Source: Owenia fusiformis
Lineage: Eukaryota > Annelida > Polychaeta > Sabellida > Oweniidae
Direction of reading: 5' to 3'
Assembly: GCA_903813345.2 (NCBI GenBank)
Contig: CAIIXF020000001.1
Span: 27,889,915 to 27,953,914 of the forward strand
Length of the DNA: 64,000 nucleotides
Part shown: in pieces, positions 7,933 to 60,390 of the stretch
Layout: each line of letters opens with the position of its first letter
Numbering within the stretch: the first letter of the stretch is position 1
Position numbers and translations under genes: made by a program
The notes under the pieces: generated by a model
Told to the model about the DNA's origin: nothing
The model's database searches: none
The model's input: only the letters and a program-made list of their open reading frames with translations

Positions 7933-8904
7933 AGCGAAAATTAAAATGATGGTACTTGACCGTAGCGGTTATACGGCAGTGAATGGTGCACTTAAGATGA
8001 CAAAAAGCATGATTGCCTCGGATATGCTACGATTTGTGCACATGAGAAACGTTAAAATTGCATCAAGATTCAAATAATTTTTCTTGGAGAGCATACCCCT
8101 CACACTGGATTGGCGTTGGGTGGGTATATCACTCCAAATGTATATATAGCTCTTCGTCCTTGAGAGATAGTCTAGATATTTTATGAAATACAAATAAGTC
8201 AATTGGTCTTGAGAAATAATTTGGAGTATCTTTGTCCAATCCTTTCATTTTATTCATTTGTTCTCAATACATGCGCTCAATATAATTTGATAAGGCAAAA
8301 CCATCCTCACAAGTATGGCGGTCTTATAATGCAACCTAATTATAAATTGGGAGAACAAAATATTATTAAGTTAAAGTGGGTATAGCTTCTTTCACTTATT
8401 AGATTCAGCATTATGATATCTCATTACCCTACTGAGGAATAAAAGTGGGTTCTGTTATTTTGACTAATGATGAATAGTTTTGGGAAAAATCGTACATCAA
8501 TGGTGGAACCTCCATAGAATTAACAATAATGCGTGGGACTCTGGGAACTCGATGGGGTACGTGATATTTTGCTCCATTGAGACATCTAATGAAATTAATC
8601 CTTCCTCAATGGTGGGGGAGGAAGGGTTGTGTGACCCTGCTTCTTGATGCGTTGGGTCGGGATATTGGGGTTTCTTTCACAAATTCTTGCAATATTTCAT
8701 TTTCTCACTGAACGTTTTACTACTTTTTGGTATTTACTCGTTTGGCACACGTGCTTATATATTTAGGAACCCATTACCTGGTTACATTGATGATTCTTTC
8801 CTCCCTCAGATAACCAAATAAACTGGTTTAGCCAATGGATATTAACTAATGAGATTGATTTATCTTTTAAAATGTACTTTCAGATAGTTTACTTCATTTT
8901 CTCA

Positions 8905-11900
8905 ATGAACATCCATACCTTCTCCGTTCTGCTTGTCTATACTGGACTTGGCGTTTGCTTTCCAACTAACGATGCCTCGGAAGACAACCGACAGTTAGCT
9001 TTACTTACAGATATAGAAAATACAATAAAAACTATCAGGGTAAGTTTTAGCCAGGTTTCATCATCACTCTAGCTGCGTTGGCGAAAAGAAGAAAAGTCGA
9101 ATAATTGACGCGTGGGCTTGGGGGCTCGTAAAATACCAGCCAGCGTTTTTATTCGTTTATCTATTAATAATGTTATACTCAATTTTGCGATTGTTTAATC
9201 TCGTGGTGACTTACACCACGCATTTAACCATATTAGATTTTGTAAGATTGTAATGCCTTGCATTGCCCATCTACCCAAAAATAAGAAAACGAAGGGTATC
9301 CCAAATTCATTTTTACCATTCTATAAATCACTTATAATATTTTCATTCAGGAATTGCATTTTGTAAAATGTCGTCTAAAATGACGAGACGCAATAGTTTT
9401 AGATATAACAGTTTGTTGATTAACAAAACGGTGTGTGATACACTAAAATGAATCAGCGAAAAAGGTAATATTACAAGCGATTGTGCGAATTATTAAAGCA
9501 ATTATGATATTTTATTGCTGCTTCTAATGTAATAGCTTAATCTATCTTAATGACCAAAGAAAATCGCGTTATTATGGACCAGCGAGGTTAATGAAAGCCG
9601 TGACAAGATAAATGAAAAAAGATATAAGACGAAACTGATTTCAGAATTAATGTACATTTTCTTTGAGAGAAAGCATTTTATTCAAACTAATTAGTTAGGC
9701 CTAATTCTATGAAATCAAAAGTTTCTGAACCAGGAGCTGAACATCTTCGACTTCCAAGGTGTTGTTCAACGCAATTGAAACCTAGTGAATCAAGATGGGA
9801 GCTGCATGGATCTGAATACTAGCATTACAGGCGACACGGATATCCCAAAATTTCGAACCTTTTTCTGACATCTTGGAAGTTTGTCTAAAATTACAGTAAC
9901 TGTTATTATTTCACTTTAACCAAGTGTACTGCGTGCCATTCAAAAAAATGTGTGAGAATGTAAATTACGTTTTTTACATTATTTTGATTAAGATCTGATG
10001 CTTATGATCTGATGAAATTATTTTTGTGTTTTCCGACGTAATAAAGCCCCATGGGCCTTATCTCACAAGTTCATTAATCAATAAAGTTTCACCAATAAGC
10101 GCTTATTTGAAAACTTAAAAAGCTCAAGACCAAAATTACCATTCCCATGCGTGATTTTAATAGTTTAATTTTGCTTCTTTAAGACCGAGCTTCATCTGCT
10201 TTCACTCAGAATACAACAAAATAATTTTTACAATAAAAATGAAATGAAACTCCAGTAACCAATGAATATTTTTTTAGAAATGTATTATATCAATGCCCAG
10301 TGTGTCAAATATGACATGGCAAAATCCGGAAGCACACTCTTCTGGGAATAGAACTGTTGTCATGCTATTTTCTTCTCTATTAACCTATTGATTTAGAGAT
10401 ATCGGCTTTGTTTGACAACCAATTAACGTATGAACACATCGTTATGGAATACTCTTTGATAACAAATTTATTGAAAAAGGCGCTAAACTGTACTGAAATT
10501 AAGCTTTAATCATCTTGTAGCTATCAAAGATTCATAAATGGTACACAGGGCCTTCCATTTCAATGTTAACTAAATTGAATTACTATACCTCTAGTAATGG
10601 AAGTTCAAAAATTAAAGCTAGCGATTCCACAAATGTCAGTCAGTCACCGAAACAACTGCCAAATGGAATGTTATCTTTTATAAGAGAGGTGAAGGTCTAC
10701 CATCGGGCTTTCTCGATTCTTGCTCAAATTAAAATAGGCGATGGTCTATTTGATTCGTCGAGTGTGACAAATGCCTTTAAATGGTGTCAAGTCTTAAAAA
10801 CACATGGATGAATATTTTTCGAATTTTATCAGTCAATTATCTTTATATCAATAGTTATGACTAAAAATATTTAGCTCGCATAGAGAGCATCATTGATCGA
10901 CACCATTGTTAACAAGATGACGTTTCTCCTGTTAGAGGCCTGTCCAGTCCATTGGATGGGCTTATCGGTGTGACATGGGCCCCAAGTCGTTTTGCGATTT
11001 TGAGAGTTCATTTTTGTGGCCAAAGACGTGAATCAGGATGCATCTGAAAATTGTCAATGTTTTGTTAATGATTGTTATCTTTCGTGAATGTAATAACCAC
11101 GTGATTCTGATTTGTAACAAAAACTCGAGCCCGGAAACGTGACATACTCTCTATAGCAATCGAATACGTATTGTTACTTTATCTGATGTGATGACGTGAA
11201 AATACCCCTGCTCTCCATAGCTTCTTCTTTAGGCCAATTCATTTTTTGAATTTTAGAGTGAGCTACTCAATCAAGATGGCTCCTCCTTAGAAGAACGACA
11301 ATTCACTAATAATTTACCAGAGTACTCAGAGGACGCCACTAATTTGCTGCCAGAGCGTGAGGAACAGTTAGCAACTTTACAAAATGAGATATTCAACGGA
11401 CTAACGGATTATATAAATTACCTTGAACAAAAGCGAGTATTAGGAGGTAATATATCCTTTATAGTTATCAGGCAGCCCTTCAAGGGGCCTCTTATAGTTT
11501 TTGTAATTATTGTTTATTTATTTATTTATTATTCTTTTTAGCACTTTTTCTCCAACTTCCAGCTAGGTTTCAGTTATCTCATATATGGTCCTATTAGGGA
11601 CCTGGTCTGGACTGGTTTTTTTTTTTTTTTTATTAATCATCTTTATTGTATTCCATAAAATACAGATATACAAACTTAAACAATTGCCAAAGTCTAATGA
11701 CATTGACGGCAATTATGAGTGAAATCCAAAGGAATGTTATTAAGTTTTTACATAATAAGTTATTTTTATGTCATGTTATTGTTAAAATAGATGAAAAAAA
11801 GTCAATAAAATATCATCACACTACACTCGTATATCACAAAAATGTGTAAGTTTTTTTTTTCCCCTTGGCCAGAGGGATTTCAGTTGTAACATGTTGTAAT

Positions 11901-14900
11901 CGATTACATGTCCAAAAGATCTAGACCCTGGTGGATATAATATGCTACTATGTTCATTAGTTTCTCATTGACATCTATTGGAAATTTATTATCTCCAAAA
12001 AGTAAGAACTGGGATTGATCATGCATATTAAGTCCATCATAGTGGGTACGGATCCCTATCGTCTCCAATCCTGCAAGTAGTGTTATTCTCTGTTCTGTCA
12101 GCAGTGGGCATTTCAACAGGAAATGTAAAGTTGTCTGGTTTGTATTGTCACATAAACATTTAGGATTAGCAACTCGTTCAAAGTTGTGTGCATGGAGGTG
12201 AGCTTGCAAGAGAAGTCCGGACCTGAGTCGGTTTAACGGAATTTCTAGGTAGCGAGGCATGGCATTTTTTAGTTTTGACGTTGATAGGGTAGAAGCATGG
12301 CTTCCATCGCCTCTTACTATTCTTTTAAATCTTGAAATTGGCTGGCCAATTCTATAATCTGGTGGAAGGTTATTCCAAAGGGCCATACCTTTAAAAATTG
12401 TAGATTTCTTAGCCAAAGCGCTTGTTTGAAGGGGAATCTTATAGTCCCTGTGGCTCCTTAGTGAGCGCACCTGTATATCATTCTCATAGGACCTGACAAG
12501 ATTACAAATGAAAGGAGGAAAGTTATTATATCTTGCTTTAAAAATAAATATTTTGAGATGTTCCTCTCTTCTAGAGGATAAAGTTTTCCAGTTTATTGAT
12601 GAGAGAACTTTATTAGTGTTCGAGCCATGGATTGCTCCAGAGACTAGACATGCTGCTCTATAATGTAACCGTTCAAGAGATTGCAATTTGGTATCTGATG
12701 CACTATTGTATATGATGTCACAATAATCAAAATGAGGGAGTATGTACGCATTATATAAAGTTTCAAGGTGCTTGCTTGACAAGATCTTGCAGAGTTTCTT
12801 CATGGGCCTCATCAGGCTTATTACTTTGTTAATTAAGTGGTCAATGTGAGCGTTGAAGTTTAGGTGCTGGTCAAGAGTAAGTCCGAGGTGTTTATGAGTA
12901 TTACATCTAGGGACTATTTCCCTGTTCATTTTCAGAGGAGGAGGTTCAATATTAATGTTTCTATGTCCAGTGAATATCAAATCAGCGCTTTTCTGTGCTT
13001 TGAATAACATTTTCCAAGTTGCGGCCCATTGGTCTAAGTGGTCCAAATCACTTTGAATGGGTTCATGAATATCGAGAAATATTTCATTTACATCAAAAGG
13101 ATTATGGAGTGAGGTGTCATCCGCGAATATGAAAGTCTTTGAAACAAGACCATCCGGTAAGTCGTTGATATATATCAAAAATAGGAGGGGTCCCAACACT
13201 GAACCCTGAGGAACTCCTGCGTTAATTTTATAATTCTTGATCTGAGGGTTGTTATTATGTATTTGTATATCTGATTCTTGAGCATCTGTATGTTGAACAG
13301 AGGACCATTCTGATAAGTTATTATTGACCTTAACTCTGATACGCCTATCACATAAGTATGATTTAATGAGATTAATAAAATTGTTGTTACAACCATAGCC
13401 TTTTAATTTAGTTATCAATACGTTGTGCGGGACAACGTCAAAAGCTGAACTCAGGTCCAAAAAGATTGAGCGTATATGCTCTTTATTATCAATATGTTGA
13501 TGAAGATCATGTACAATATTTATTAGTTGATTTGTTGTTCCATGTTTAGGTAAGAACCCACTTTGGAGTTTATACAAGAGATTGTGCTCGAGAAGATGAG
13601 AAAGCAAATGTCTATGAATAATGCGTTCAAAAACTTTAGACAAAGTACTTAGGAGAGTTACAGGTCTATAATTGGAGGCAATGGTTGAGTCACCTTTTTT
13701 GTAAATTGGAATAACTATTCCCTCCTTCCAGATATCTGGAAAAATATTCTCATCAAGTATTCTATTAAATAGGTTGCTTACTGGTAATGAAAAAGAGCTG
13801 GCACACATTTTTAACATCTTGTTTGAGATTTCATCAGGACCAGGAGATTTATGTACATCTAACTCGTTAAGTAGTTCAAAGACCTCTTGTTGTGAAGTTC
13901 TGAAGTTTTGGAGTATTTGATTGGTTCTGCTTGGAAAAATAGGTGTAAGATTTGCATTATTTTCAATCAGATTTTTCTGTACAAAGTATTTCATGAGCAT
14001 ATTAGATTTGTCCAAACTGGAGCATGCAGGAACATCATTGTTAGGCAGGTATAAAACTGGAATGGAAGAAATACTGTTTTTACCTAACAAGTCTTTGATG
14101 AGTGTCCAATAATTGATTGAATTTTTATCACAATTTTCAATTTTAAAAGTAACATTAGATAAGTAGTCACTTTTAGCTGTTTCTATTAATTCTTTGACTT
14201 TGCGACTTTGGGTTACATACTTTTCTTTATATGTTGCATTGTCAGTGGATTTGAATTTGTGATGAAGCCTATTTCTTTTATAAATCTCATTTTTAATGGA
14301 ACTATTGAACCATGGTTGGTCATCAAATCTTGTTGAACGAATATTATTTTTAACATTTTATTTGATAATAGTAAGAAAATTTTTCACAAGTTTTGTAGTG
14401 CCTTCGTTAACAGAATCAGTTCCAATAAAACTCCAGTCAAAATCCCTTATCTTCGAATTTAATAAGTCGGCATTCACATCTTTGAAGTAAAAAATTGTTT
14501 TTTTAATTGAAGGTTCGCGTGGAACTTTAACACTAAATTGAGATATAATAGAACAGTGGTCAGAATTACCAATTGGAGGATCAATTTTAAAAGAAACGAG
14601 ATGCTCAGAATCAGATACCAACAAGTCAATGCATGATTTGGAGTTGCCAGTGATTCTAGTAGGCTCATTAACAAGTTGCGATAGACCAAGATCAGTGAGC
14701 AGTTTTTTCAGTTCAGTACCAGCAAGATTATTATGGTCATCAGTATACCAGGCATCATTTCTCGCATTGAAATCTCCATTGAGAAAAACACCATTATTGG
14801 GTTCAATGAGCACTTGTTCTAAATTCAATTTGAGTTTTGAAAAATAATTTCTAGTTTCGTTCGCTGTCATTGATGGTGATCTATAAAAGAATCCATACAG

Positions 14901-17900
14901 AAATTTTTTGAAATTCACCCGGATTTCTACCCAACAGTTCGCGAGTTCGTCGTTCACATGCTGATCACATATTTTAGTCTCGATAGAGTCATGACTCCAA
15001 AGTAAAAGACCTCGACCCTTGTTATTTGAGTACTTTGGCTTGCCATATTCATTGATATTAAAAATGTTCGAACTCAGATCTTCATTGGATATGTGGCCAG
15101 TCTCACAGAGTGCTATTAAATGAAAATTTTCTTGTTTTGCATAGTTTTTGAGGAAATCCAACCGTGTAAGTGAGTCAGCTTTAATGCTGTTGACATTACT
15201 AAATAAAATTTTCAAATCATTACTTGGGCCTGGATTGCTTTCCACATCACCGCATAGCGTAATCAAGTAATGACATAAATGGCTTGGATTGTGGATAAAC
15301 AATGATGATCCAGGAATACAGCACAAAGCCATCACAACAGTGGTAAGTTTCAAAATAATTAGGATGCAGTTTGAATGTAAAAGAAGGATTGATCTAGTGA
15401 CCAGAATAAGTGTAAACAGTTTCACAAGAATATACAAAACTTGACACACAAAAATGATGGCAAGTGCAGTGAATTTCAAACAACAAATGTCAAGGTTAAA
15501 ATGTAAGCCTCCACTGAACAGTAGGAGGCTTAAAAACACAGTTGCTAATCTAATGAGCAGACATTCTGGGTGCACCGTTGAATCTTTAGGATACTCGTGA
15601 AGAGGATATATTGCGAAGCTGTTGAAACACCCTACTGCCATTCTCCATTGTTGTGAGCTAACAGGGTCTGGACTGGTCTGGACATGAAATTAGTTTATAT
15701 CTAGGTCAAGGTCAAAATCAAGGTCAAATTTAACTTTTTCATAATTTCTTGCGATGAATTAAATTGTAACTAGATATAAGCATTCTCTAGCAAATTGCTC
15801 ACTATATGTTCGCGTTTTTGAGATATTTGACGTCAAAAAAAGGTAAAAATTGGTCATTTTTCAACTTGCTTCAATTTGACCCATTTTTAAAAAAAATCAT
15901 CTACAAAGTCTAGGGAGTTCAAATCTGACCCTATTAGATTTGAGATTTGACCTTTGGTTGGCAACTGATTATCTATCAACATTTTGCACCAGTTTTGAGA
16001 TATAAGACCTCAAAAACAGAAAAAGGTCAAATTTTCCAAGTCCAAATTTCACTATGCTTTAAATTGACCAAACTTTTTTAAATCATCCTTAAGTTCTCAA
16101 GAGTTTAAATCTGACCTTAGATTAGACCTTTGACCTTTAGTTGACCTTCAGTGATCTTCGAAAGATCAAAAAGTTGAATTTTCAAATTGATTTTCTGGAT
16201 TCAAAAGGTATATTTAATCACAAAAGACCTACTAAGGTCTAAAAAGTAAAAATCAGCACGGTCAAAGGTTAGTCATCAAACTAAATCACAAACTGTGTTT
16301 CTAAGCATGGGTTTTCAATTTTTGAAAGTTACTCAAAGTTGGTAACTACAAATCAATATTTTGGGATAAAACTCGGGGTATGTATATTTCTCTAAAGGTG
16401 CTACACATATCAGCCGTTGATTATCTTTTAAAATTTTGCACCATTTTTGAGATATAAGAGCTCAAAATTGAAAAAAAGTCAAATTTCTGAATTTTTCAAG
16501 GTCAAATTTCTTGCTTCAAATTGAACAAATATTTTTTTAAACATCGTCTACAAGTTGCCTAGAGTTCATATATGACCTTAGATTTGAGATTTAACATTCG
16601 GCTGACCTTCTACTTGTCGAAACTGACTACAGGGCCTTGCAATCTTGATATCTAGATCTAATAGTTTTTACTTTAACATTATCAGTTTTAGTTGTGTCAT
16701 GGTGACGTGAATTTTGTAATATTCAACTTGCAGACCAAAACTCCAATGCCAGAATGTATGTTAAAGCATGTCTATGTTATGCATGAATGTGTAACATGCA
16801 GTACATTACTACTTCAAAGATTAATTTGAAAGGTCAAAAAACATTTGGCAAGAAACTTTTTAATGAAAAACTTGGTCAATATCACCATTTCAGTGTAAAC
16901 GGCAACTCCTTATTTAATATTTCAGAATAATAGTATAATATAGCCATCTCCTAATCATTAAAATTCATTTTGTTTTAAACTTGAGTGTGATATACGTACA
17001 TGTAGTCATACTTTGAAGAGATTTCATTTTACTTTCCAACATCCCAACATCGGGTGGCCATCTTGGATTTTTAAAGCTCGAATCATAAAAATAGACATGT
17101 AAATCCCTGCTTCCTGGGAGTCGGGCTGAAGAACACGGAATATTTGTGTTATCGATATATCACTGTATCCCCCATCCCGTTGTACGGACGGACAGAGGAG
17201 ACCTGACTAACGGATGTATTGAAGAATTTTTTGTTTCTCGATTTGTATTCATTAGTAGCTATAGAAATGCGAGCAACAAATCGTGTTTCCTAAACAAAAC
17301 GCATAGCTCCCTAGGAACACTTACATTCTTTTCCTAATAGATTTAGATGACATAATAAATTTGATAATGGTAATCAAGTTACCAAAGTAGTTGTTTTGCT
17401 AGTTAATTCAATTTACAATGGCTTGTCAGCACAAGAGGATCTTGGTTTGAAACCAAAGACATAAGGCCATAAGAAGTAGGTTATTTGTTTTGCGTCATGG
17501 CAAAATCCAAATCATGCAAGGGTACAAGGAAAACAAACACAAACTCAACAAAAAACACAAACTTGTTTATGGGCATATAAAGGGATGACATGCCAATTTT
17601 CAGTGATTACAAACACATATCTATACATCCTATACAATACATTTAAGCATAGCTATTATTCAAGGGTACAAAATAAGAAAATACACAGTGTATGCTAAAG
17701 TAATCAATAACACTGTCAATTTTGACGCACATCAAATGATCTGCCATTTCGTCCGATTCTGATTGAATGAAATGCGATGGTACTTCCAAACCCTTGTAAT
17801 TGCTATTTGGATGTGTTTGTTTTTTCTGATTTACTCAAAATCGTGCAAGCAAGGGGACGCAAAACAGAGAATGTACTTCTTATGGCCTAACCTTTATTTA

Positions 17901-20900
17901 TGCGTGTTGGTTGATTAGCAATGCATAGAGATGGCTCGTTCAAATGACATGAAATTAGAAAGTGCGGTGTTCGAATCAAAATCTAGTATTAGAAGCAAGA
18001 ATCCCATTAAAAGATAATACGGATTTAATGCAATCTATCTAGAATCAATACCAGCTATTGGAACAGCCAGGCTACTTGATGAAAGTGTAAATTCAAACGG
18101 TAGCGAAATTTATCTATCCTTGATATTGTTTTTATAGATCCCTGGATGGGCATTTATGGGTTTTTACTAAGATCATAACTGATTTGCTACCTACATTATT
18201 AATATCTTTCATCAAGAAGTCTTTCAAATGTGATACAAACAAAGATATTTCATAGAGAAATAATTACTATTTCGGCGTGATTGAATATAGAGTTAAATCA
18301 AATGTGCAGCGATCAGCTATGGCCTATAAAATGGTGTCAGTTGCTTTCGACAACATTAATTCGAAATCGAGGTATGTTATTGACCATTGCGAAACACGTG
18401 TCGTGGCTATACAGGGCTCATTTGCGACTTTTGTCTTGTCCTCATTCTAATATCATTACATGATTGCAATTCAGTTTAAACCTTCTTTGAGAGCCGATGG
18501 TCTCAATTTGTTTAACATATGGATTAAACAAGTTTGATTTCTCTGATGGAATTGACATTCTGGCTTAACCAGCTAAGGAGTCTGTTGATTTGTTTAATGG
18601 AATTGTCATTTCAAACAAATGCCTTTGCCCAAAGTGCTTGACTGTATTGGTATTGAGGGAGTATTTTACTCTCATCGTGTCATTTGTTCTAGTTCAGAAA
18701 TGATTATTAGAAGGCTATATCGCTTAATTATTCCGTAGTAGATTACTCTAATTTAGATCTTTTGTCTTCCTTCATTTTATTTTCACTTAATAGCTCATTT
18801 CGTGTATCTTCTGTTTTGTGAAAATTATGAATCAGTACTGGTATGTGTTATTCATTTTCTGCATGTTGGGGTAGAAAACATAATATCTTGTTTATTCTTG
18901 CGATGCTCTTCACATTATACATTTTGCATTTCAATGAGCGTCATCTTAAGCGAAGCCGTTTTCTCTATCTCCGATTCCGGTGTCTCCTCCGTTTTCATTG
19001 TCGCAGTTTCGAATTGTCTTGCATAAGCATGTGTATGGATATAATAACAAGTGATTAAACTTACATTTAATTGAAGTATCGACTAAATCATACCCATTGT
19101 AACTCTTGCAACTCTTGTACTAATTATATGGTACAAACCAGACGTCATGTGAGAGGGTCGCAGTAAAATTGCCACTAATAAATGTTGCAACATATAATGA
19201 TAACAATTTATTCTAAACTGGGAATTCAATGTTTTCCATGTCATATCATCAAATGATGAACTGAATACATATAGCAAGTTATGTAGGCAATTGAATTTGC
19301 TAACTTTATTTAACAAAAAAGATACGTTTCTTTAGCTTCAACAAAGTTATACATGTAGGTCTTTAAAGTCAAAATTGTTTTTCAAAAAACCTCTCCCATT
19401 GAAATAACACAGGAGGCGAATAATGATTTTCAAATTTGAAGCTCTGTAACTTTAGTATTCATCAAGTAAACTAAACACTTAGTGTGCGAAAATGTTAGAC
19501 AATTAAATTTTCTATACAAAAATAGTTTTGCTGAATCTTTTACGGAATAGATATCCTGATTTCTGATTTGCCCCGAACCGGCCCCGAACCAACCATTTCC
19601 CATTGGTTTATATGGGAATGACGATTTTCAAAAATTAATCAAATTTATCATCAATTTTCGACCTATTGTGATTGAGGAAAAAATTGAGAAAACTTGGAGG
19701 TATTGGAAGTCAAATTACGTTTCCATTAATAGTATAAGTATTTTCATCGCAGGCTAAGTAAATAAAAATTCAAAGGTAATAAAAAGGCTAACAGGTAGTT
19801 CAATGGGGGAGCTAAGGTTGCCAAAATGGATTTTTGAAAACTATTTCACGTTAATGTTGACATTCATCGATATCAAACTAGACATTCACATGTACACGTC
19901 GCACGAAACTGGGGACAATTAGCGTAACATTATGGCGTCAAAAAACCAAGACAAAACAATGAGCAGCATAGGGCGCAAACAGCCTTACAACGTCAAAAAC
20001 GACAAGTGTCACATTTTTGTCAAGTTTAGTCAACCTAAAAATAAAATACTTTATCCTTATCTAATCATGACAAAATTCACAGGGTAGCAAGATCTCGAGG
20101 ACAATATTTCTAAAATGTTTTTGAATTTTGGAAAACGGTCAAGAAATCCACTTGGGGCGTTGGTAAAAATTGATATGTATGGAATTTGTGGTAGAAAATC
20201 GATGCGTCACATTTTTTCAAGTCTCGAAAACCAGCTCTTATTTTAATATTATTTGCAAAATAAACAAACTGGTTATTGTTTTGTAAATTTCGCCATGACA
20301 ATATTGTGCAGTTAATTTTTCTTTCAAATCAGACTTGAATTAGAAGGTTAAATGAAGGTAAACTTATTGCTCGTCCCATCCGCCTTCAAAACCTTACACA
20401 ATTTTGAAAATTTTAAAAGAGTTCACATATGATAATTTGAACTGTAGCCGTTAAGCAATTGTGACGTCATAAATGAACATGTTCCATTGAATAAATTGTG
20501 AAATTTTAGTGAGGTTTTGATCATTATTTCAAAAGTTATCCCAATTTCAACGAGCCCTGTGAGTGTAAAGTGTTACGTCTTACAGCGTATTTGACGATTT
20601 TGGGATATGTTTAACTTTAAAAATATGTTGGATCCCATCAAAATTTTGAATAAAAAATAATTTCACTGAAATGCGAATAAAAAGTATTTCAAAATGATAT
20701 ATAAAACACATAGCTAGCTTTTTAAATGATGCAGAGATTAACGCTCAAAGCTGAAATCAGCCCGTATTTCCCGAATTGTCCCCAGGTCCGTGCACGTCAT
20801 AATGATATTTATGCCTTCAAGTTCAAAACAAATTTTGTCCTCTATTTACTGAAAGTTCAAGGTCAGCAAATCTGGAATTCTATATCTCATCATATTCGAC

Positions 20901-22093
20901 AAGCAGCCTCACTCTCAATTTTTAAGTCGCTGTTCAAACAAAATAAAATAAATGATATACCTTTATAATTTTAAACATTTGAAAATGTCTTTACTATTGG
21001 AAATCTGTACTCCGCCACATTTTGTCTTATTTACTTATTTACCGTTCTCGTGCCCTGTGTCCCTGTCCCTGAGTATTAATATTTTTTACATTTTTGAAAT
21101 GATTTCCAACAGACTTGGGCCAGTGTCATTCTCAGGTATTTTTTCCCTCCATTTCTATTTGTCTTACCTTTTGGCTGCACTGACCCATTTCTGTCCAGTT
21201 AAAACCAACATATATGCTCTTGAGAACGTCATGTTGTATGGAATGTCATGTATGTTTTTCAAAATATAGTAATAAATATCTGAAGCTGAATCTGATATAC
21301 AGTACAACGTGTACCAAAACTGACAATTTTTGAAAGGCTTATAAAAAGATTGCTTTTTAGAAAGGTTTATGAAATTGCCATCATTGTCATTATTTTGCAA
21401 CATTGCTCTCGAGGCATCAAATGTTGTCCCCCTCCATCTAATATTAATTTATTTCGATTATTTTTTGTATAACGCATGGAAGCTAACTTTAAAAAGTGAG
21501 CAATGTCATTAGTATTGTGATAATAACGTCCCTTATACCTATTTATTACTGGTCGTGTAGACCATTGTTGCCCGATTTGTAGCAAAAACATTGACTTTTG
21601 CACTTTGGTGATGATGCGCCTTTTTAATAGATCTCATATCTTAGAAAGGTATTAGTTCCATAAAACTACATATTTTGCAATGCACTGCGATTATTCATTT
21701 GCCAATTCAGTTTTAAATTTTCTCTCGAAAAAATAAATCTTCCAAATTTGTTGAATTTTCCTACAGAAATCGCCTAATCCCCCCCCCCCCCTCTATCCAT
21801 TTTGTACGATCACCGGGCGTGTAAAAGGACGACTAGTCCATACGTGTACAACATGTACAAGAATACATGAAACAAATAGTGGTTTTCTAAGTAAAAATAT
21901 GACTTCCTATAAATATGTTGAGTTCTCGGGGCTCATGGTACGGCCAGGTCATCATAATTCAGTTTTGTTATTTTTCAATTATCTTTCAGCTAAAACCATG
22001 TATAAGAGAGCTCCACCCAAGGGGTTCACAGCAATGAGGGGGAAACGCAGTACAGAAATAAAGAGTGCAAAAAGAAAGAATAAAACGGTGTAG
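8905..22093 (+). CDS. Tachykinin-related peptide precursor (3 coding exons)
   Basis: Coding exons are 8905-9039 (the exon itself probably starts at 8884 after a tttcag acceptor), 11257-11446 and 21990-22093. The junction phases are 0 and 1 and all splice sites are GT/AG. The product is 142 aa. Residues 1 to about 18 form a signal peptide, followed by an acidic spacer (about 25-103) and dibasic K104-R105. A short linker ends at K114-R115. The candidate mature peptide at 116-125 is APPKGFTAMR, followed by G126-K127-R128, the standard amidation and cleavage signal. An F-x-A-x-R-amide C-terminus matches protostome tachykinin-related peptides, such as the bivalve anodontatachykinin type. It would act as a secreted ligand of a tachykinin-type GPCR. 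Only one mature copy is seen, whereas lophotrochozoan precursors often carry several; further phase 1-1 exons in the 10.5 kb intron could have been missed. Intron 2 contains an antisense LINE. Confidence 0.8.
9040..11256 (+). other. Intron 1 of the peptide-precursor gene
   Basis: The intron begins GTAAGT directly after the codon for R45 and ends TTTTAG before the second exon. It is AT-rich. An 82-codon open frame at 10563-10811 has no recognisable features. I saw no strong repeat structure beyond a fragment of the recurring gtggtgac motif near 9210. Confidence 0.6.
11616..15664 (-). mobile_element. CR1-like LINE with 2A motif, nearly full length
   Basis: The element is about 4.05 kb. It ends in a 16-nt poly(A) (T run 11616-11631 on +) and is flanked by a 12-bp target duplication, ggtctggactgg, at 11604-11615 and 15665-15676. 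This fits target-primed reverse transcription. The minus strand carries one long APE-RT frame (separate entry) and about 270 nt of 3' sequence. Only 23 nt precede the first in-frame ATG, and the frame stays open to the 5' end, so slight 5' truncation is possible. It sits antisense in intron 2 of the peptide gene. The clade call (CR1 group) rests on the APE-plus-RT architecture without RNase H and is inferred. Confidence 0.92.
11904..15641 (-). pseudogene. LINE APE endonuclease-reverse transcriptase ORF, one in-frame stop
   Basis: This is a single frame of 1,246 codons broken only by TAA at 14358-14360; no frameshift is needed. Residues 1-125 are strongly hydrophobic, with several membrane-length segments. 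Residues 126-139 read LITLCGDVESNPGP, a canonical 2A ribosome-skipping motif, so the leader would be released at G138/P139. An APE-type endonuclease follows, with LFSNVNS, ALCETG, GDFNARND, SCIDLLVS and NSDHCS motifs. After the stop come the RT domain (AGVPQGSVLGP; catalytic FADD at 13116-13127) and a C-terminal Cys/His cluster (CLC...H...KC, near 12.1 kb). The stop lies between endonuclease and RT, so this copy should not make a full protein, but it looks young. Confidence 0.93.
15677..20725 (+). other. Intron 2 interior, repeat-derived, no exon supported
   Basis: From 15677 to about 16640 the sequence repeats the motifs aaggtcaaatttga and gttcaaatctgacctta. It belongs to the same interspersed family as 39.5, 45.0 and 53.7 kb. 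The remainder is AT-rich with short unremarkable frames. I found no additional phase 1-1 exon with a tachykinin-like peptide, but a short one could be missed by eye. Confidence 0.5.
20726..20968 (+). pseudogene. 3' remnant of a second LINE (RT ORF C-terminus)
   Basis: The 80-codon frame ends with a pattern typical of LINE RT C-termini: a QGQQIWNSISHHIR block followed by SLSIFKSLFKQ and a stop. It lacks the catalytic RT region, so it is a 5'-truncated copy. The following 300 nt (to about 21260) resembles a LINE 3' tail but shows no clear poly(A). It is in the same direction as the host gene, within intron 2. Confidence 0.6.
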
Positions 22094-25486: not shown

Positions 25487-28400
25487 CTATGCAAAGGCTT
25501 TCCCCACTGCTATTGTATGGTCTACACCACAGTGAACTGATGAGACTTCACATGGCACAGCTACCTAAAATAGAACAATAGCAGGTCTTATCATATAATA
25601 TATTAAAACAAGATATACAATTATTATACTAGGCATTAACATGCAAAATATCAGCACTTGCCATTTGTTACAGACACCGAGCGCCAGACACTGGACTCCA
25701 ACCGCCGTCACAAAAAATGAGACAATAACAATATGTCACCACTTTTGGAGGTGACGCCTACTAAAATCATATGACTTTCATTTCTTACACCTTACTATTT
25801 AAAGCCCAGATAAACCTTACACTCGAGAAGGAAATGTAGCTAATTGGACCTTAATCTGAAGAGCCCAACTTTAGTAAAACTCAATTAATAAAAGAGTATA
25901 AACTTCGCACAGATCCATTTGTTGTAGAACAATACAAGGCATTAACATGCAAAATGTCACCACCATTTGTTACAGACACAAACCGCCAATTGCCGATCAC
26001 CAACCGCAGTCACAAAAACCAGAGACCATAACAATATGTCACCACTTTTTGGTGGTGCCATAAACATGGAAAAATGTATGTATTTTTCTGTAATTCTCAA
26101 AGTCAATATAAAAAAAATATTCGATTTAAATAAAAAATAAATCACCTTCATTGGGAAGAACTGATCTTGTTTGTGGCCAAAGCCAAGTGCTCCAGCAATG
26201 TTCCTACCCCACATATACAGGTCACCTTTGTCTGGAACAAATATACAAAAATATTTTCGTAATCATCATATCCTAATGAAAAATTTGCACAAGTGGTTAA
26301 AATAAGTATTTTTTTAACTCTATCTTTCGTGGCTGTTTTGTCCTGAATAACTTAGTGGTCATGGTTTAAAAGGGTGTAAATATAGATGTCATCTTACTTG
26401 TTATTGCTGCAAAGTGATTGAGACTACATTGAAGATCCTTCACATGTACATCCTCATTAAACTCATTATTTCCAAATAAGGTCATTGGAATTTCTGTAGG
26501 AGTGCCTGTCTGTTGTAACTTTGGTCCTTTACCCAGAATTCCAAATCCCCACACAAAAACTTTGCCAGATTCTGAAATACAGTAGAAATATAAAGCTTTT
26601 GGAGACATCAATATGTTCCTGTGAGATGTACACTATATTCATATCAACCAATAAAAAAATATCAACCAATGAATAATGGATTTATCCCATGACAAGTATT
26701 TACTAAAATATAAGGGATGATGTCCAACTGATCAATATAACATAACACATCTTTGAATATTATATCAAACAAAATTTACATGTACATCACAGTACATGAT
26801 CTTATAGTAGCCTATTGTGGAGATATTTACCATTAATTAATCCGCACATTGAACCAGTGGCACACACACGCTGTACACGGCCAACATGTTTGAAGGGTAG
26901 ATGGCGTGGAATGTTCACTTGGGTCTTATCAGTTACTGACGATAACTGGTTGTACTCCGAGTTACCCCAGCCAAATATGTCACCCTTAGCTGGAAGAATT
27001 GTGAAGTATATTTTTATTATTTTTATTTTATTTATTCTCTTCTATGCTACAAAATAATCTAATCATGTGATGTACATTTTGGGGGAATTTTGAACATTTT
27101 CTTTCAACAGATGTTGTCAAGAAATTTTGTTTGAAGTTCTTAGAGGTTTTCAAAAGTACTTTATTTTCTTTATACTTATTGAACATTCCAAACTTGTAAA
27201 AATACTAAACATATTCAGACAATCTGTATATGTTGCTACCACCATACAGGAGCCTTTAAACATTTAAAATAACTGAAACTTTACTGTCACTATTCACAGG
27301 CTGGTATATAAAAAATTGTCCGCTGTGACGGAGCGTGCTATTTTGCATAGAAACACTAGGAAATCCACACAATTAATTTTTTTACTCATATGTTTTGCTA
27401 TATCAAAGAAAATTACTGACTCCATGCAATGAATATATCATTTGCGGGTAACTTTAACTTCTGTTTGAAGTCCAACAACGCTAAGAGTAAAAGCTATTGA
27501 AAACGGCGTCGGAGTATCATACTCCAAAATGTACCATTTCTTTTATTTCTTTTTAATGGTACAATATAGCGACACGATAATATTTACATATGTTTTCAGC
27601 ATTACTCTGAAGGTATTAATGAGATCTTTATGTATTGGGTATTTTTAATTTTTTCAATAAAAAATAATGTTTAAATTTTTTGTCCGCTGTGACGGAGCAG
27701 TTTCAAATCTGAAATACGTTAAGAATTTAGATTTATAATATATCTCTTTATAACTACACGTTAGAGGAGGGAGCGTATCAAATCTCTTTCGTAAAGTATT
27801 CTGAAAAATAAAACGAAATAAAAGTACACAATTCAAATTCTGAGATGCATATACGACCACTCTTTAAGCTTCTTTTCTCAGTTTGTACTGTAATCCAAGT
27901 TATGCATGGTAACTCATGAAAATGATAGTCAACTCTATTTCAGTATAGGGTATTTGCCTTTCGTTGTGCCTACTGTGGATCCATCACCTGACATGGTCAT
28001 TTTTATGGTAACTTATATACAGTAATATTATGTGGTAAAAGGTTATACATCTGTCGGAATGCAGGATGTCTGTGCGCTATTTCGAATAAATTCATATTAT
28101 CCCTATTTATGTTACGCGGTAAACACGATACAAAAATATGCCATATTCCGCAACGAATATGCCATACTAGTATTCACTTGCGGTGTATAACAGATTCACC
28201 TGTGGTATATGGCATACACACTAACCAATGAGAACGTGATACGGAAGTATGCAATTGTCAATTGCATCGATTGAACGAACAAGTAAAACTTTATAAATTA
28301 TTATAATGATTACTGAATCAACAGTACAGTTTATCGAATACATCAACGTATGCAGAAGTATCACTCACCAATCTCACGTAATAAACTTACCCAATCAATC

Positions 28401-36139: not shown

Positions 36140-39100
36140 ATGGCAACAACAAATACTGTGAAATTTCTCCGCCGCTTTTCCGGTATATTGCAGAAGCAGC
36201 AGGCGTTACCCTTGCACAAACACAACTCAAATCTACAGAAGAGGACATTCTACTTGTATTCACAGGAACCATTTCACCCTATCCCCGGGAAGGAGCCAGA
36301 GCACTGCAAAGCAGCAGAAGCAGTCAAAGTTGTCCAATCAGGTTTGTTCACCTTCAAATGACATACTGACCTGACTTGTTTGTTTACAATACACCACCCA
36401 GAAAAATATTGTTACATCTTCCCCTTGTAATTTGTACACTCAAGATCATACAAAGTAGATTACAGTAGGCCTATAAAGGATGCAGATTTTTTCAATAAGA
36501 ATTTGATTTCAAATCTCAAATCTAATAATGACAAATTCAGCCTTCTCAGGGCTAAAAGTACATGGACAGATGTATTGTACACTAGACTTACTTCCTGCGA
36601 AAGCTATTTGGATTTTGATATAATAGCTTTCCCACGGAGCATTCGGACAGCTGAATGATTGTGACCTTTGAAATCGAATTAAGTCGATCCGCAGCTTACT
36701 TTTGGTCTCTAACTGTGTCTTACATCAGTATCATCAATCCGTGTAAGTATTAGAGCGCTGAAATACTTCTTTTTCGATCAAGACTTGTAATTTGTTCATC
36801 GAGTGAATGTTTTTTAGACCTATTTCCAATATGGCGGTTTGCTAGGAGCGAGATACGCAACAAACGAAATGAATTTTGAGAATTAGTTAGGTTCGGACAA
36901 CCTCCGGAGGTTTACGGAAATGTCCGAGCAGAAAACGCCATATTGGAATTTGGCAGTAAAAACATTCACTCGACTAACAATTACAAGTCTTGATCGAAAA
37001 GGAAGTACTTCAGCGCTCCAATACTTACACGGATTGATGATACTGATGTAAGACATAGTAAGAGACCAAAAGTAAGCCGCGGATCGACTTAATTCGATTT
37101 CAAAGGTCACTATTAATCAGCTGTTCACTTCCCCATTTGAGAGCCATAAGTTTCAAAATCTAACATGGCTCTCGAAGTGAGTAACACTAGACTAGTCCAT
37201 GCACATGTCATCATCTCATATCAATTTTATTCCATAGGACATCGAGTATACATCCATGGAGTTGCAGCTACACCCATTCCATTGGTGGAAGCACTGGCCA
37301 ATCATGGCATAGAATCAAATCTCCGGGATGTTGAGCTGTTACATATTCACACTGCAGGCCCAGGAACATTTGCGCAGAAAGAATATGAAGGTTTGCCTAT
37401 ATTTTGTAGCATTTACATGTACTGTAGTTTTGCTCTATCATTCTGGCGGACAATAAAGTACACTCACTAGGGGAAAGCAAATTTATGAAAAAATTTAAGT
37501 ATGTTTGTTTACTGAAAAATGAACTGATTTTTTCAGTTTAAAATTCAGTAGAAATATACAATGAAAAAATGCTGACTTTTAATTAACAAAAAATGTACTG
37601 ACTGTACAGGTAGCCAGAGAGCCTCCAAATTTTTTTGCATGCATACATTCTTTCTGGTTTTGTATGTTCTTGTATATTTACATGTTTTTCGATTGATCCA
37701 AAAAGTGCCTTACTCCCTTTTCTGATCCTTAAGATTGACATTTGCATTATCTTGTCTTACAAATCAGTTTAAAAATTATTTTGTTGATAGTCAGCATTGA
37801 AGTTTTATTATTACTAAGGAACCCCGACCTTTCCAACTTCTGAAGTGATCAAACTGTTATTATAAATGTAGATGACATGTGAGATCTAAAACTATTTCAT
37901 CGAAAGTACAAACTTTTTATTGAAGCTACGGGTACTTTACATTACAGGAATATTTAGAAGCAACTCTCTGTTTATGGGGCCTAATGTTCGTGAAGCCGTG
38001 AATGCTGGGAGAGCTGATGTCATGCCTATATTTCTCAGTGATATTCCACATTTGTTTCGCAGGAGAATACTCAATCTTGATGTTGCTATGGTTTCTGTAA
38101 GTATAGAATACAAAGAGAACATGATGCATACTACGTTACAACTAAACTATGTGATATATGTATCCATTATTACCAATAGAATAAGGGATTTGCGTATTAG
38201 GACCTGTCGCAAAAATTTAATCAAATTCAGTTGTATGCACAATAAAAATATTAACCAAAAGGCAATAATTTGAATAATACATGTATGATTAAATAAGTGC
38301 ATCATAATGGCTTTTTGTAGCCAGGCATTAGACAGGCAAGGCAGCTTCCTCGACAAAATTTTACAGAGTGATATGAATCTAGACATTGCTTACCTTTTCA
38401 AATTTGCCTTGTCTATAAAACCCTTGCAATGAATAGGTTATTGTGCTAATAAATCCATTAACAAAAAGCAAAACAGAGTATTACATCAACTGGAAAGCAG
38501 TAAGGGTAAAGTGCTGGCCCTGATACTAACCCTTGAAAAAATAGAAATAAATCTCATAAAATACTCAAATGTGAGGAATGGGATGAGTAAGAGATGAAAA
38601 TTCTGTGGAAGGTATTTATATATGTTAGTGAGGGTCCAAAAGACCACAAGGGCTTAGTTCAAAACGACTGTTGTCACTTAACTGATCAACAATTTTGCTT
38701 CTCTCTATGACTGTATAGGTAAGCCCCCCAGATGAACATGGGTATTGTACGCTAGGACCCAGTGTGGATTGTACAAGAGCTGCAGTGCAAAATGCTAAAA
38801 CCATTGTGGGTATGTTGATAAGTATTATTTCATCATTCCTTTTTTTATTTTACAACACAGCAAACACAGAAATACAGTACTTGTAGTACATTCATACTTT
38901 ATAAACCTCAGGGCTCTGATTTTCAAACTGGTTGAATAAATGGTACAATTGTAGGCCTGCTTGAATTCACTTGTTCCATCACTGAGTTGTGTTTGAGAAA
39001 ATTATTAGGATTGGGTGAATTTTCCTGCTTAATAAAATGACAACAAGCAGTTGCAGGCATTTTTATTTAGCATTCTTTTTAGATAACATTCTTTCCAGAA

Positions 39101-42100
39101 TGTACTGTACGTATGTGACGTATTATTTGTCCTGCCATAATATTTGTGACATTTTATTGTTTTAAAGGTATGGTCAACAAGAATATGCCAAGGACATTTG
39201 GGGATGGAATAATTCACAAATCACACTTTGACTACATGGTAGAAGGGCACATGCCCCTTCCTGAGCTGTCCAAACATGAACTAGATCTGCTCATGGTTGA
39301 TCTCCCCCTGAGTGATGATTATGTAAACCCTTCAGAAAGAGAGCAGAAAATTGGCAAAAGTATCGCAGAAAATCTCGTAACTGATGGAGCAACTTTACAA
39401 ATGGGTATGTTCTTTTTATGACACTGAAAAAAAGCTACATTGTAACCTTGTGCTGAGGAGCACCTGGAACATGCAGGTGAGCAGGAGCATCAACCTTGTC
39501 ATCGAAATTCCTGCGCATCCTTTCAACTTGAAAATAGATGGAATTTCAAATCTGACTTAAGATTTGAGATTTGACTTTCAATGACCTTCTCAAGGTCGAA
39601 AAAGGTCAAAAAGGTAGCTTTCAACTCGCTTCAAATTGACTATTTTTTCTTTTAAATCATCTACAAGTTCTCAAAAGTTCAAATGTAGATTTGACCTTCA
39701 ATGACATTCTCAAGGTCAAAAGGGTCTTTTTTCATCTTGCTTCAAATTGACCAATTTTTTTTCAAAATCATCTACAAGTTCTCAGAAGTTCAAATCTGAC
39801 TTTAGTTTTGAGATTTCATCTTCAATGACCTTCTCAGGGTCAAAAAAGGTGGTGACATTTTGTCATGTTAATGCCTTGTTGCTGATTGCATTACAAATGC
39901 TCATTTATGAGAACAATTAACATGAATTTCCAAGATACAAGTTTTCTTGTGTGATTTTACCTCAAATCCTTTAAGAAATTTTTTCCAGACTAAGTGCCTG
40001 TGTAGCTATTTGAATAATTTTAATAATTGTTTCATCATTGAGAATTCCATTAATTTCAATCTTCTTGTCTATCCAGGTATTGGCAATATCCCAAACATAG
40101 TTTTAAAGCATCTCCACAACCATAAAGACCTAGGTGTCCACACTGAGATGTTCAGTGATGGAGTGATTGACCTTGTGGAGAATGGAAACATCACAAATGC
40201 AAAGAAAGTTATACAACCTGGCAAGATCGTAGGAGCATTCTGTGTTGGCACTAGACGCTTGTATGACTTCTTGGATGACAACCCTTTTGTAGGTAAGGAA
40301 TTGTGCTGATTCAAAATAAATGTTATCAAAACCTTTTGGTTGAACAAAACATGTACTTCCATTTAGCATACATTGAATTTGATGTGTATATCATATTGAA
40401 GCCTAAATGTGTGTAGGTTCATTGAAAAATTGATTGATGTTTGTTGATTCGATAGAAATAACGGAGACAATAATATCAGTTTGGCAAAACTATAATTATG
40501 GCTTTACAATATACATCAGAGAGTCTTAATTATTAGTCTTTTATAATAAAGTTGATATTTTGTGTCGACTTCAGGTTCAGATCAAAAACTAACTCTCTCC
40601 ACAGCCTGCGCTGTGCTTATATACCTCGAAACAAATGAGCCATCTACTATATTTAACTTTGAGAAACAAAACTTATATACAATAGTGACATCTTAAAGTA
40701 GAATTGCTTCAATCAAGGGCTTTCAAGAGATATATTTCTACATTGCAGTAATGGGAGATGTGGCTCATGTGTGTAACACAGCAGTAATAGCACAGAATCC
40801 ACGAGTGACAGCCATCAACTCTTGTATTGAAGTGGACATAACAGGCCAGGTCGTCTCTGACAGCATTGGAAACAAAATGCATTCTGGTATTTATATTACT
40901 GTATATCAAATTATACATGTATATATATTGATGTAGCTAGCTTAGATTAATTAAAGATCATTCACCCAAACTAGTTCATGTATTAAGTGAATCTTGTAAA
41001 AAGTTCAAATGTTAATTGTGTAACAAAACCAAAATCAGAGTACCAGAGTAATTTTAATACTCAAAATTATGCTTATTATAGAAGCAAGGCATTTCATGAG
41101 GCCTATTGACTCTTACCTAAATAGCAAAATATATACACATATATAATCTAATATTTTAGCATATTGTCTTTATTATTGTCTTCATTATTAAGAGGTCTGG
41201 ACTAAAAAGTGCATCTCTAGTGAGCATTATGATTTCTATGGTTACCATTTACGCAACAAATACCAGAATCAGAAAAGATCTTCTTCTAAACATATTTATT
41301 TTTTTCTAGTAGTAAAGGAATGTGACAGTTGCAACCATAAATCATATTTGATGAATGTCGATGTGAAAACACATCCAAAAATCTGGATTTTGATGTCTTT
41401 GAAAACCTCATGAGAATGTTTTCTTTCAAGGTGTTGGAGGTCAGATTGACTTCATTAGAGGAGCATCACAAGGTTTAGATGGCTTGGGGAAACCTATATT
41501 GGCTATGACTTCTACAACACGTCATGGTCAGACAAAAATAGTACCCGACATTCACAAGGGTGAGGCTTTAAAAATGTTATATTAAAAAAATACAAACCGT
41601 GGATCCCATGCAGGCCTGTAGCCAGGGGGGGTTCGCCCCCCCCCCTGGCCAAAAATTCTTTCAAAAGCATGCAGTTTTCACCATTTTGAGCACTTCTCAA
41701 GTAATTTTAGCCATATTTGGGCCAAAATTGTCAAATAAGAACTCCCCCTGGAAATTTTTGAAAACTGAACCCCCCTTGGCAAATCCTGACTACGGGCCTG
41801 CCATGACTGAATCCAATTCCTAGTATTCAGAATATGTAACAAAATTTTGGATAAGTCTAGCTATTCATTGATTTACTAGAGTATTCCAGTAATTGTTTGT
41901 GTACATGTAAGTGCAAAATAAGCATATTGGCAATAAGCTACCTTAATATGAATACACTTCATTGTTTAAATTCTTGTTTCAAAGAAATCACACGCTTTTT
42001 ACAGGAAATAAAAAATTCGTATTACAAAAATATTTCCTAGAAGGGAGACCAATTTGATGTTAAAAAGACTTGAGAGCATAACGAAAAAGTCATTGTTATT

Positions 42101-45319: not shown

Positions 45320-46330
45320 ACTATAGTTGGGGATGTGCAGAATATTCATTTTCTGTAAAAACTGAAGAATCTGTTGAATCTGAGGAATCTGATTTTGGGA
45401 TGCGCAGAATATTCATTTTCTGTAAAAACTGTCGAATCTGAGGAATCTGATTTGGGGATGTGCAGAATATTCATTTTCTGTAAAAACTGAAGAATCTGTT
45501 GAATCTGAGGAATCTGATTCTTAGATATTCAGAATTTACATTTTCTGTAAAAACTGTAGAATCTGAGAAATCTGATTTTGGGATGTGCAGAATATTCATT
45601 TTCTGTAAAAACTGTAGAATCTGTTGAATCTGATTTTGGGATGCGCAGAATATTCATTTTTTGTAAAAACTGTCGAATCTGAGGAATCTGATTTTGGGAT
45701 GTACAGAATATTCATTTTCTGCAAAAACTGTAGAATCTGTTGAATCTGAGGAATCTGATTTTTGGATGTACAGAATATTCATTTTCTGTAAAAACTGAAA
45801 AATCTGTTGAATCTGATAAATCAGATTCTTGGATGTGCAGAATATTCATTTTCTGTAAAAACTGTAGAATCTGTTGAATCTGATTTTGGGATGCGCAGAA
45901 TATTCATTTTTTGTAAAAACTGTCGAATCTGAGGAATCTGATTTTGGGATGTACAGAATATTCATTTTCTGCAAAAACTGTAGAATCTGTTGAATCTGAG
46001 GAATCTGATTTTTGGATGTACAGAATATTCATTTTCTGTAAAAACTGAAAAATCTGTTGAATCTGATAAATCAGATTCCTGGATGTGCAGAACATTCAGA
46101 TTCTGTAAAAACTGAAGAATCTGAGGAATCTGATTCTCGAATGTACAGAATATTCAGATTCCATAAAAATTGTAGAATCTCTGAATCTGAGAAAACTGAT
46201 TATGGGATGTGAGACTTTTCATTACCTTTAAAAATATAGATCTGAGAATTCTGATCCTGGGATAATCAGTATTTTCAGATTCTGTAAAAAACTGAAGAAT
46301 CTGTATGGCAGAATTTTCAGATTTTCAAAA
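45320..46330. repeat. Minisatellite with a 250-bp higher-order repeat
   Basis: About 16 tandem units of 57-67 bp have the core gcagaatattcattttctg then taaaaactgtagaatctg and variable gaatctgaggaatctg blocks. Within this array, 45581-45830 and 45831-46080 are two almost identical 250-bp blocks of four units each, a higher-order structure. Units beyond 46080 decay progressively. No coding role is seen. Confidence 0.92.
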
Positions 46331-47800: not shown

Positions 47801-47857
47801 GAAAAGATTTACGCCCATTCCCGCATTCTCTGTTTGACAGCTCACTTGTGATCGACA

Positions 47858-59147: not shown

Positions 59148-59417
59148 GCCCTTGGTCTGCAAAAGGGTCTGGCAAAAGGGGTGGCGACCTTGCAATATGG
59201 AGTTGCAAATGATCAATAGTACAGTGAATGATAAATGTTGGGTTGATTTTTCAAATCACCCCAACTGCTTGTGTATTGAAATCTTGGGGTTGAAAGCTAG
59301 TGCATGGTTATTCAGATAAAATTCAGCTTTGTGTCAACTACTGACAATGTTTTACAAACCCAAGTTTTCAGTACACACAATAAGAAATGCTACATTTTAT
59401 ACATAAACTTTCACCTG

Positions 59418-59423
59418 AATAAA
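59418..59423 (+). terminator. Poly(A) signal AATAAA, beta-lactamase-like gene
   Basis: A canonical AATAAA lies 271 bp after the stop codon and 84 bp before the right arm of the inverted duplication, so a transcript ending here would exclude the second arm. Confidence 0.45.
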
Positions 59424-59481
59424 AATTCATCTTTGAGTCACTCTAAGCGTTGATGTTAGTTTTGATCTGCAGATGACAGCA

Positions 59482-59506
59482 TTGGCGGATCCAGGGGGCG
59501 GGGGGA
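59482..59506 (+). repeat. Fragment of the G-rich family E repeat
   Basis: The sequence attggcggatccaggggg matches the left end of the family E elements at 7258 and 51988. It stops at the inner edge of the right arm of the inverted duplication, so it marks that junction. Confidence 0.55.
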
Positions 59507-60390
59507 TTTTTGAGAAAGAGTCGAAGGCATGCTAGGCGAACCCTGGAAACACGGATTCGTTAGACCAGGGTTCACTGTTTCTTTCTGTTAAACCCTGTGT
59601 GAAAGTACATTCATGATTCATACTACAGTGAGCAGGAGGTTTAACAGTGAACCCGGGTGCTCTTTGGCCTTATTTAGATCTTTGTTTCTTAGACCAGGGT
59701 TCAGCAGGGTTTAAGGGCATTCCAAACGAAATAAGTGTTTAATGAGGCTAAGAAATAGAAAAATGTGCTTAATTAGAATCATATACCTTGTATTTTGTAC
59801 TTAGTAAATGTTAAACACATGAAAATCAGTTATTTTTATCAGTGGCCTAAAGTACCAAAAGTCAAAAGACCCCTTCTACTCTAACTTGTCACTTCATAGT
59901 TCAGCCATCTTTGTTTTCAACTTGTTTGAAATGAAGAAAATGCGTACTTTGAGTTGGATTTACTCCGTGATAACTGTTTTTCATAGCAAAACCATGGTAT
60001 GTTTTGAAGAATATCTACCCAGAGACGAGAATTGGTAAGTTTCCACTCTAAAATCGAAGTATTTCTCTACGAAATGATCGATCGAATTTTGAAATATTCC
60101 AAAAAACGGATTTTTTTAGATCTACTGGTACTTTGAAAACTCATCGGCGATTTCTGACGAACTGAGAGGGTATAGACAGCTTCATTGTAGCAGGAAACAT
60201 TCTTTCATTTTTTCAAAAAATATATATGCGGGTTTCGAGTCGTAGTTTTGATGTTTACTTTTCTCAGACTTTTGAAATGAAGAACTAAGAGCCTTATTCT
60301 TGACATTTAGCAGTTTAGTGTTAGAGTCTAGCAAAGAATTGGCCCTCAAATGATAACAAATAAGAAAAATAACCTGGGGGTATGTTTCAG

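Follow-up and report, generated by a model that had tools for sequence, protein, structure and literature searches.

A probable tachykinin-related neuropeptide gene encoding a single copy of an FTAMR-amide peptide

Tachykinin-related peptides of molluscs and other animals

A phenylalanine and the terminal arginine are reported to be critical for the activity of mollusc tachykinins, and the C-terminal amide is reported to be required (PMC11365428). For the oyster, only the phenylalanine and the arginine are described as critical, as retold in PMC9521575. In Aplysia, exchange of the middle glycine for alanine was reported to cause no significant change in activity, and three other residues at the same position raised the EC50 strongly; the same paper gives peptides with a middle alanine or proline from Lottia, Crassostrea, Octopus, Anodonta and Drosophila (PMC11365428). 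In abalone, a calcium assay showed activation of receptors by FX1GX2Ramide peptides (0.7 to 5.2 nM), and a rise in cAMP is reported as well (PMC9521575). Two oyster tachykinins, FRFTALRamide and FGFAPMRamide, are given in a survey of Pinctada fucata and Crassostrea gigas in a part that leaves the species of each peptide unstated (PMC4200219).

The number of peptides per precursor varies. Five copies are reported for the scallop (PMC5996578), two peptide sequences for Aplysia (PMC11365428) and two or three peptides for each of the abalone precursors (PMC9521575). Tardigrade precursors are described with one peptide each (PMC6880623), and exocrine tachykinin precursors are likewise described as single-copy (PMC9521575). 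Second tachykinin genes have been reported in Lottia and Platynereis (PMC6880623) as well as in the abalone (PMC9521575).

With respect to the distribution of the family, PMC8557429 mentions detection of a tachykinin only in nemerteans out of nemerteans, brachiopods and phoronids, and its wording on receptors leaves open which of these three groups carries them. As of 2019, no tachykinin peptide had been identified in hemichordates and cephalochordates according to PMC6880623, in which tachykinin receptors of hemichordates are referred to as known or suspected. Putative tachykinins have been published for starfish and brittle stars. Those of starfish, which are doubted in the same review, end in F-amide (PMC6880623) and are therefore unlike the peptide discussed below. 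For natalisin, a further family with an F-xxx-R-amide ending, an origin in the arthropod lineage has been suggested in PMC6880623, where tardigrades and a mite are noted as a caveat.

Structure of the predicted gene

The locus lies in a stretch of 64,000 nucleotides, referred to here as the window. An earlier note on this DNA had proposed that three short, widely spaced exons are spliced into one precursor, and all three were recovered at the coordinates given there, with compatible phases. The segments 8905-9039 (135 nt), 11257-11446 (190 nt) and 21990-22093 (104 nt), all on the forward strand, translate when joined into a frame of 142 amino acids up to the stop codon, free of frameshifts and internal stops. 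The junction between exons 1 and 2 is in phase 0, that between exons 2 and 3 in phase 1. The 142 residues are arranged in the order MNIHTFSVLLVYTGLGVCFPTNDASEDNRQ...YLEQKRVLGAKTMYKR-APPKGFTAMR-GKR-STEIKSAKRKNKTV-stop.

In its 45 codons, the coding part of exon 1, which ends in phase 0, encodes a signal-peptide-like segment as well as the beginning of an acidic spacer. Judged by hydropathy, a hydrophobic run, IHTFSVLLVYTGLGVC, lies behind the start and reaches its maximum at IHTFSVLLV. The predicted intron 1 (9040-11256, 2217 nt, phase 0) begins with the donor GTAAGT and ends with the acceptor TTTTAG. Exon 2 continues the acidic spacer (SELLNQDGSS...YLEQKRVLG) and ends in phase 1. It is followed by the predicted intron 2 (11447-21989, 10,543 nt, phase 1). 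The coding part of exon 3 reads AKTMYKR-APPKGFTAMR-GKR-STEIKSAKRKNKTV-stop. The spacer parts of exons 1 and 2 can be aligned with each other with a score of 27; an internal repeat is not claimed on this basis.

Several features at the borders of the gene allow for variants of this model. An in-frame ATG at 8872 lies upstream of the ATG at 8905 within an open frame that extends from 8794 to 9069; a start at this position could add 11 residues, by arithmetic 153 in total, and hydropathy is compatible with either start codon. A strong acceptor-like site at 8810 (score 6.6) suggests that a separate 5'-untranslated exon may precede the first coding exon. Within exon 2, an alternative donor at 11357 (score 1.5) is weaker than the donor at the exon end and is likewise in phase 1, and its use would possibly yield a precursor form that is shorter by 30 residues. 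The first AATAAA downstream of the stop codon is found at 22673, 580 bases on.

Splice sites were scored with generic position weights and ranked among the 3463 GT and 3315 AG sites of the window. The donor of exon 1 (AGG|GTAAGT) ranks 11th and that of exon 2 (GAG|GTAATA) 141st among the GT sites, and the acceptor of exon 3 ranks 54th among the AG sites. The weakest of the four sites is the acceptor of exon 2, with rank 271 and a score of 0.9. Two AG sites just upstream score higher than this acceptor, with exon starts at 11221 (score 5.0) and 11233 (4.8). These starts, 36 and 24 bases earlier and in the same frame, were rejected, as the TAG at 11254-11256, which belongs to the proposed acceptor, would become an in-frame stop codon.

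Codon usage was evaluated with three models, trained on the retrotransposon frames of the window, on seven host-like open frames (themselves unconfirmed exons) or on both sets together. For exon 1, the proposed frame is the best forward frame in all three models, and one reverse frame outscores it in the host model. The proposed frame of exon 2 was compared with 2000 random stretches free of stops, of which just 4.3%, 1.8% and 0.35% surpass it in the three models. It is slightly outscored by another forward frame in the retrotransposon model (0.167 versus 0.129) and by a reverse frame in the host model (0.198 versus 0.189). For exon 3, another forward frame outscores the proposed one in every model. 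The codon scores thus favour exons 1 and 2, and the result for exon 3 counts against its frame.

With regard to the surrounding DNA, the G+C content of the window varies between 0.30 and 0.42 in steps of 2 kb, and searches for Rfam families at the gathering threshold and for tRNAs returned none in the window. Intron 2 houses a non-LTR retrotransposon at 11907-15689, in the orientation opposite to the gene. Its protein had no match in viral contigs and none by tblastn against plasmids, and the two pattern matches in prokaryote genome contigs included no confirmed relative. For the protein of a repeated element, the pattern matched 20 times in viral contigs and 156 times in genome contigs, again with no confirmed relative. 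Viral contigs also lacked a match to a degenerate DNA pattern for the peptide, and 501 bases around exon 1 gave no blastn match to phages.

The peptide cassette and its closest relatives

The cassette KR-APPKGFTAMR-GKR occupies positions 22004-22048. The two dibasic KR sites lie at 22004-22009 and 22043-22048, the predicted mature peptide, assigned from the translation, the cassette layout and the similarity to oyster tachykinins, at 22010-22039, and the putative amide-donor glycine at 22040-22042. The sequence thus contains dibasic cleavage sites together with an amidation glycine, and FTAMR followed by GKR has the form F-x-(G/A/P)-x-R-amide. FTAMR departs from the strict FxGxR form, and the ending differs from the vertebrate-type FXGLM-amide. 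At the level of the motif, the FxxxR-amide ending of natalisins, which have an arthropod-type precursor, would fit the peptide as well.

A strict version of the cassette, [KR][KR]-x(3-16)-F-x-[GAP]-x-R-G-[KR][KR], searched in six frames, occurs once in the window and was found in 1 of 2000 random windows generated with an order-1 Markov model (none of 40 in a smaller set), a figure that overstates the case because the pattern was written after the match was known. The broad core [FYW]xxxRG[KR] was seen once, compared with a mean of 2.18 in random windows, and is not significant. The occurrence of a single cassette, as described in the earlier note, is borne out: in six frames across the whole window no second [FYW]xxxRG[KR] core was found, in a scan which intron-split cassettes would escape. 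The interval between 11.45 and 21.99 kb had been pointed out as a place for further phase 1-1 exons. None was found in intron 2 among candidates of up to about 300 bases with a G[KR][KR] site and both splice scores of at least 2; an exon would be missed if its splice sites were weak and its ending a different one. A second tachykinin gene may nevertheless be present elsewhere in the same genome.

The general dibasic-G-dibasic pattern has 12 overlapping matches in the window, and a slightly wider pattern has 13, compared with a mean of 5.1 and a maximum of 11 in 40 random windows. Near 47.1 and 7.5 kb, two stretches rich in arginine or lysine account for seven of the 12 matches, which overlap one another there. 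Judged by eye, only the match at 22004 looks like a neuropeptide, and the remaining ones were rejected.

Published peptides were then aligned to the precursor, and the chance level was taken from 2000 shuffled precursors. The two oyster peptides gave the pairs GFTAMRG/GFAPMRG and FTAMRG/FTALRG, and none of the 2000 shuffles was as good. For two Aplysia peptides, 4 and 19 of 2000 shuffles were as good, and for two of the five published abalone peptides (PMC9521575) the numbers were 6 and 263, the latter alignment being no better than chance. Seven published bivalve peptides of families other than tachykinin (myomodulin, PDF, luqin, sCAP, FFamide, FxRIamide and LASGLVamide) all remained at the random level, with 921 to 1931 of 2000 shuffles as good. 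For three spacer peptides known from molluscs, the counts were 70, 375 and 774 of 2000, and the similarity of the spacers is therefore weak at best.

The closest described relatives of the predicted peptide are thus the oyster tachykinins, with which it shares the core F-T-A-aliphatic-R-amide; FTAMR-amide and oyster FTALR-amide are one conservative residue apart. With FGFAPMR-amide it has GF and MR in common, and in the oyster peptides, as in APPKGFTAMR, the middle residue is small and other than glycine. In contrast to them, APPKGFTAMR carries a longer N-terminus (APPK). Its precursor has one peptide. The earlier note had likened the ending to the F-x-A-x-R form of bivalves, and the likeness holds, given oyster FTALR-amide and the middle alanine or proline of several molluscs.

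At the level of the precursor, the reported Aplysia protein of 165 amino acids (PMC11365428) is similar in its length, spacers, dibasic sites and the ending P-x-GF-x-x-x-R-amide, and its signal peptide has a putative counterpart in the hydrophobic run of exon 1. It differs in having two FXGXR cassettes, compared with one FTAMR here, and in its spacers, which are weakly similar at best (70 and 375 of 2000). Precursors with two or three paracopies carrying a middle glycine share the length range, the processing signals and the aromatic-xxx-R-amide C-terminus. Several paracopies per precursor, a trait common among protostome tachykinins, are absent here. The tardigrade precursors likewise contain a single tachykinin, as described in PMC6880623, and belong to a different phylum. 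Since one-copy precursors exist elsewhere, the number of paracopies is a usual rather than a defining trait. The statement that a single-copy precursor is unusual for protostomes therefore stands as to the one cassette in the window, and is qualified as to its rarity by the tardigrade and exocrine precedents.

A search of Pfam returned no family for the precursor up to an E value of 1. A match to an unrelated enzyme in NCBIfam (E 0.0079, 16 bits versus a cut-off of 303) and a single match in the PDB (E 0.99) were both taken as chance. The string GFTAMR was not found in the literature searched, which did not extend to supplementary files and most subscription papers, and the substring FTAMR was present in 6 of the 16 papers listed for it, with no title on neuropeptides among them.

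Interpretation and significance

On the basis of its sequence, the locus is in all likelihood a protein-coding gene for a tachykinin-related neuropeptide of a lophotrochozoan, most likely a bivalve. The FTAMR-amide ending and the low G+C content would suit a bivalve, and the split open frames, the retrotransposon and the peptide itself speak for an animal origin of the window. The three stretches of DNA very probably belong to one invertebrate neuropeptide gene, ordinary in all but one trait: it encodes one copy of the peptide instead of several. The oyster-like core and the mollusc precedents for alanine or proline support the reading as a tachykinin-related precursor, and in this the earlier note was right in substance.

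Other explanations have to be weighed against this one. The mediocre acceptor of exon 2 and the codon usage of exon 3, which disfavours the proposed frame, would agree with exons that are wrongly joined, or with a locus that is a pseudogene or owes its open frame to chance, so that no peptide is made. Yet the three segments agree in frame and phase, the joined frame has neither frameshift nor stop, and the strict cassette is as rare in random windows as given above, so that we consider this very unlikely. Convergence of an unrelated F-xxx-R-amide family on the same ending would be easy, since mature peptides are short, and the weak spacer similarity (70, 375 and 774 of 2000) would agree with it. 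However, the best matches are tachykinins and all seven other bivalve peptides aligned at random, and for natalisin, which was considered as the other family with such an ending, an arthropod-lineage origin has been suggested, with the caveat given above (PMC6880623). The probability of convergence is accordingly put slightly lower again.

The single copy would also suit an exported, gland-specific peptide that acts on the receptors of another animal. Some exocrine tachykinins end in FXGMR-amide according to PMC9521575, with a methionine preceding the arginine as in FTAMR, and their precursors are single-copy, as mentioned. The core of the peptide, however, matches oyster tachykinins best and the FXGLM ending is absent, and of the three alternatives we regard an exocrine peptide as the least probable.

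If the locus is a tachykinin-related neuropeptide gene, the precursor would enter the secretory pathway and would be cleaved by a prohormone convertase at the KR pairs, followed by trimming of the basic residues and conversion of the glycine to the amide. The expected target of the resulting APPKGFTAMR-amide would be a G-protein-coupled receptor of the tachykinin type, in neurons, gut or muscle. The main contacts would presumably be made by the phenylalanine at the fifth position from the C-terminus and by the terminal arginine-amide. An action like that of mollusc tachykinins is inferred here from the reports on Aplysia, abalone and oyster. A more far-reaching proposal is that the DNA belongs to a lineage with known or suspected tachykinin receptors and no reported tachykinin peptide, such as the hemichordates, brachiopods or phoronids, and that this one-copy gene with long introns represents the missing ligand, which searches relying on repeated cassettes would have overlooked. 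We consider this unlikely.

Overall, the predicted gene adds another mollusc-like tachykinin in which alanine takes the place of glycine, and an example of a precursor with a single copy where several are usual. If the animal's phylum had no known tachykinin peptide, the gene would close a gap in our view of how this signalling system evolved; otherwise, its description would be useful as the annotation of a gene that may escape automatic prediction.

A non-LTR retrotransposon within intron 2

The second intron of the putative tachykinin-related gene harbors a non-LTR retrotransposon on the minus strand (11907-15689), which consists of two adjacent open frames. The endonuclease frame (14361-15689, minus strand) was assigned by Pfam Exo_endo_phos and the reverse transcriptase frame (11907-14357, minus strand) by RVT_1. 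The translated endonuclease frame contains the motif CGDVESNPGP, which we take to be 2A peptide-like.

Further open frames and a tandem array

RCC1-repeat open frames are located at 25960-26632 on the minus strand. On the plus strand, the open frames at 37890-39418 resemble 4-hydroxybutyrate / acetyl-CoA transferases, as judged from Pfam and PDB searches: the AcetylCoA_hydro score of 23.3 bits is slightly below the cut-off of 24, and 9vag as well as two other PDB entries were matched. The periods of 58, 67 and 125 nt at 45330-46234 all belong to one tandem array with a higher-order unit of 250 nt.

A large palindrome and a probable beta-lactamase-like gene

A large imperfect palindrome (56015-61615) is built from inverted repeats that nest within one another as seven pairs; these measure 104 to 444 nt, are 95-99% complementary and are centered at about 58.8-58.9 kb. 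Both arms carry the same coding stretch, PGGMFQNMSSLF... (57143-57427, minus strand; 60373-60657, plus strand), for which the Pfam search gave no match.

The region 47852-50550 (plus strand) likely contains exons that encode a secreted protein of the serine beta-lactamase-like type. In two of the three pieces, the score for Pfam Beta-lactamase exceeds the cut-off, and the PDB matches include LACTB. The open frame at 58515-59144 in the palindrome loop, without a match in Pfam, may by our reading be part of this putative beta-lactamase-like gene.
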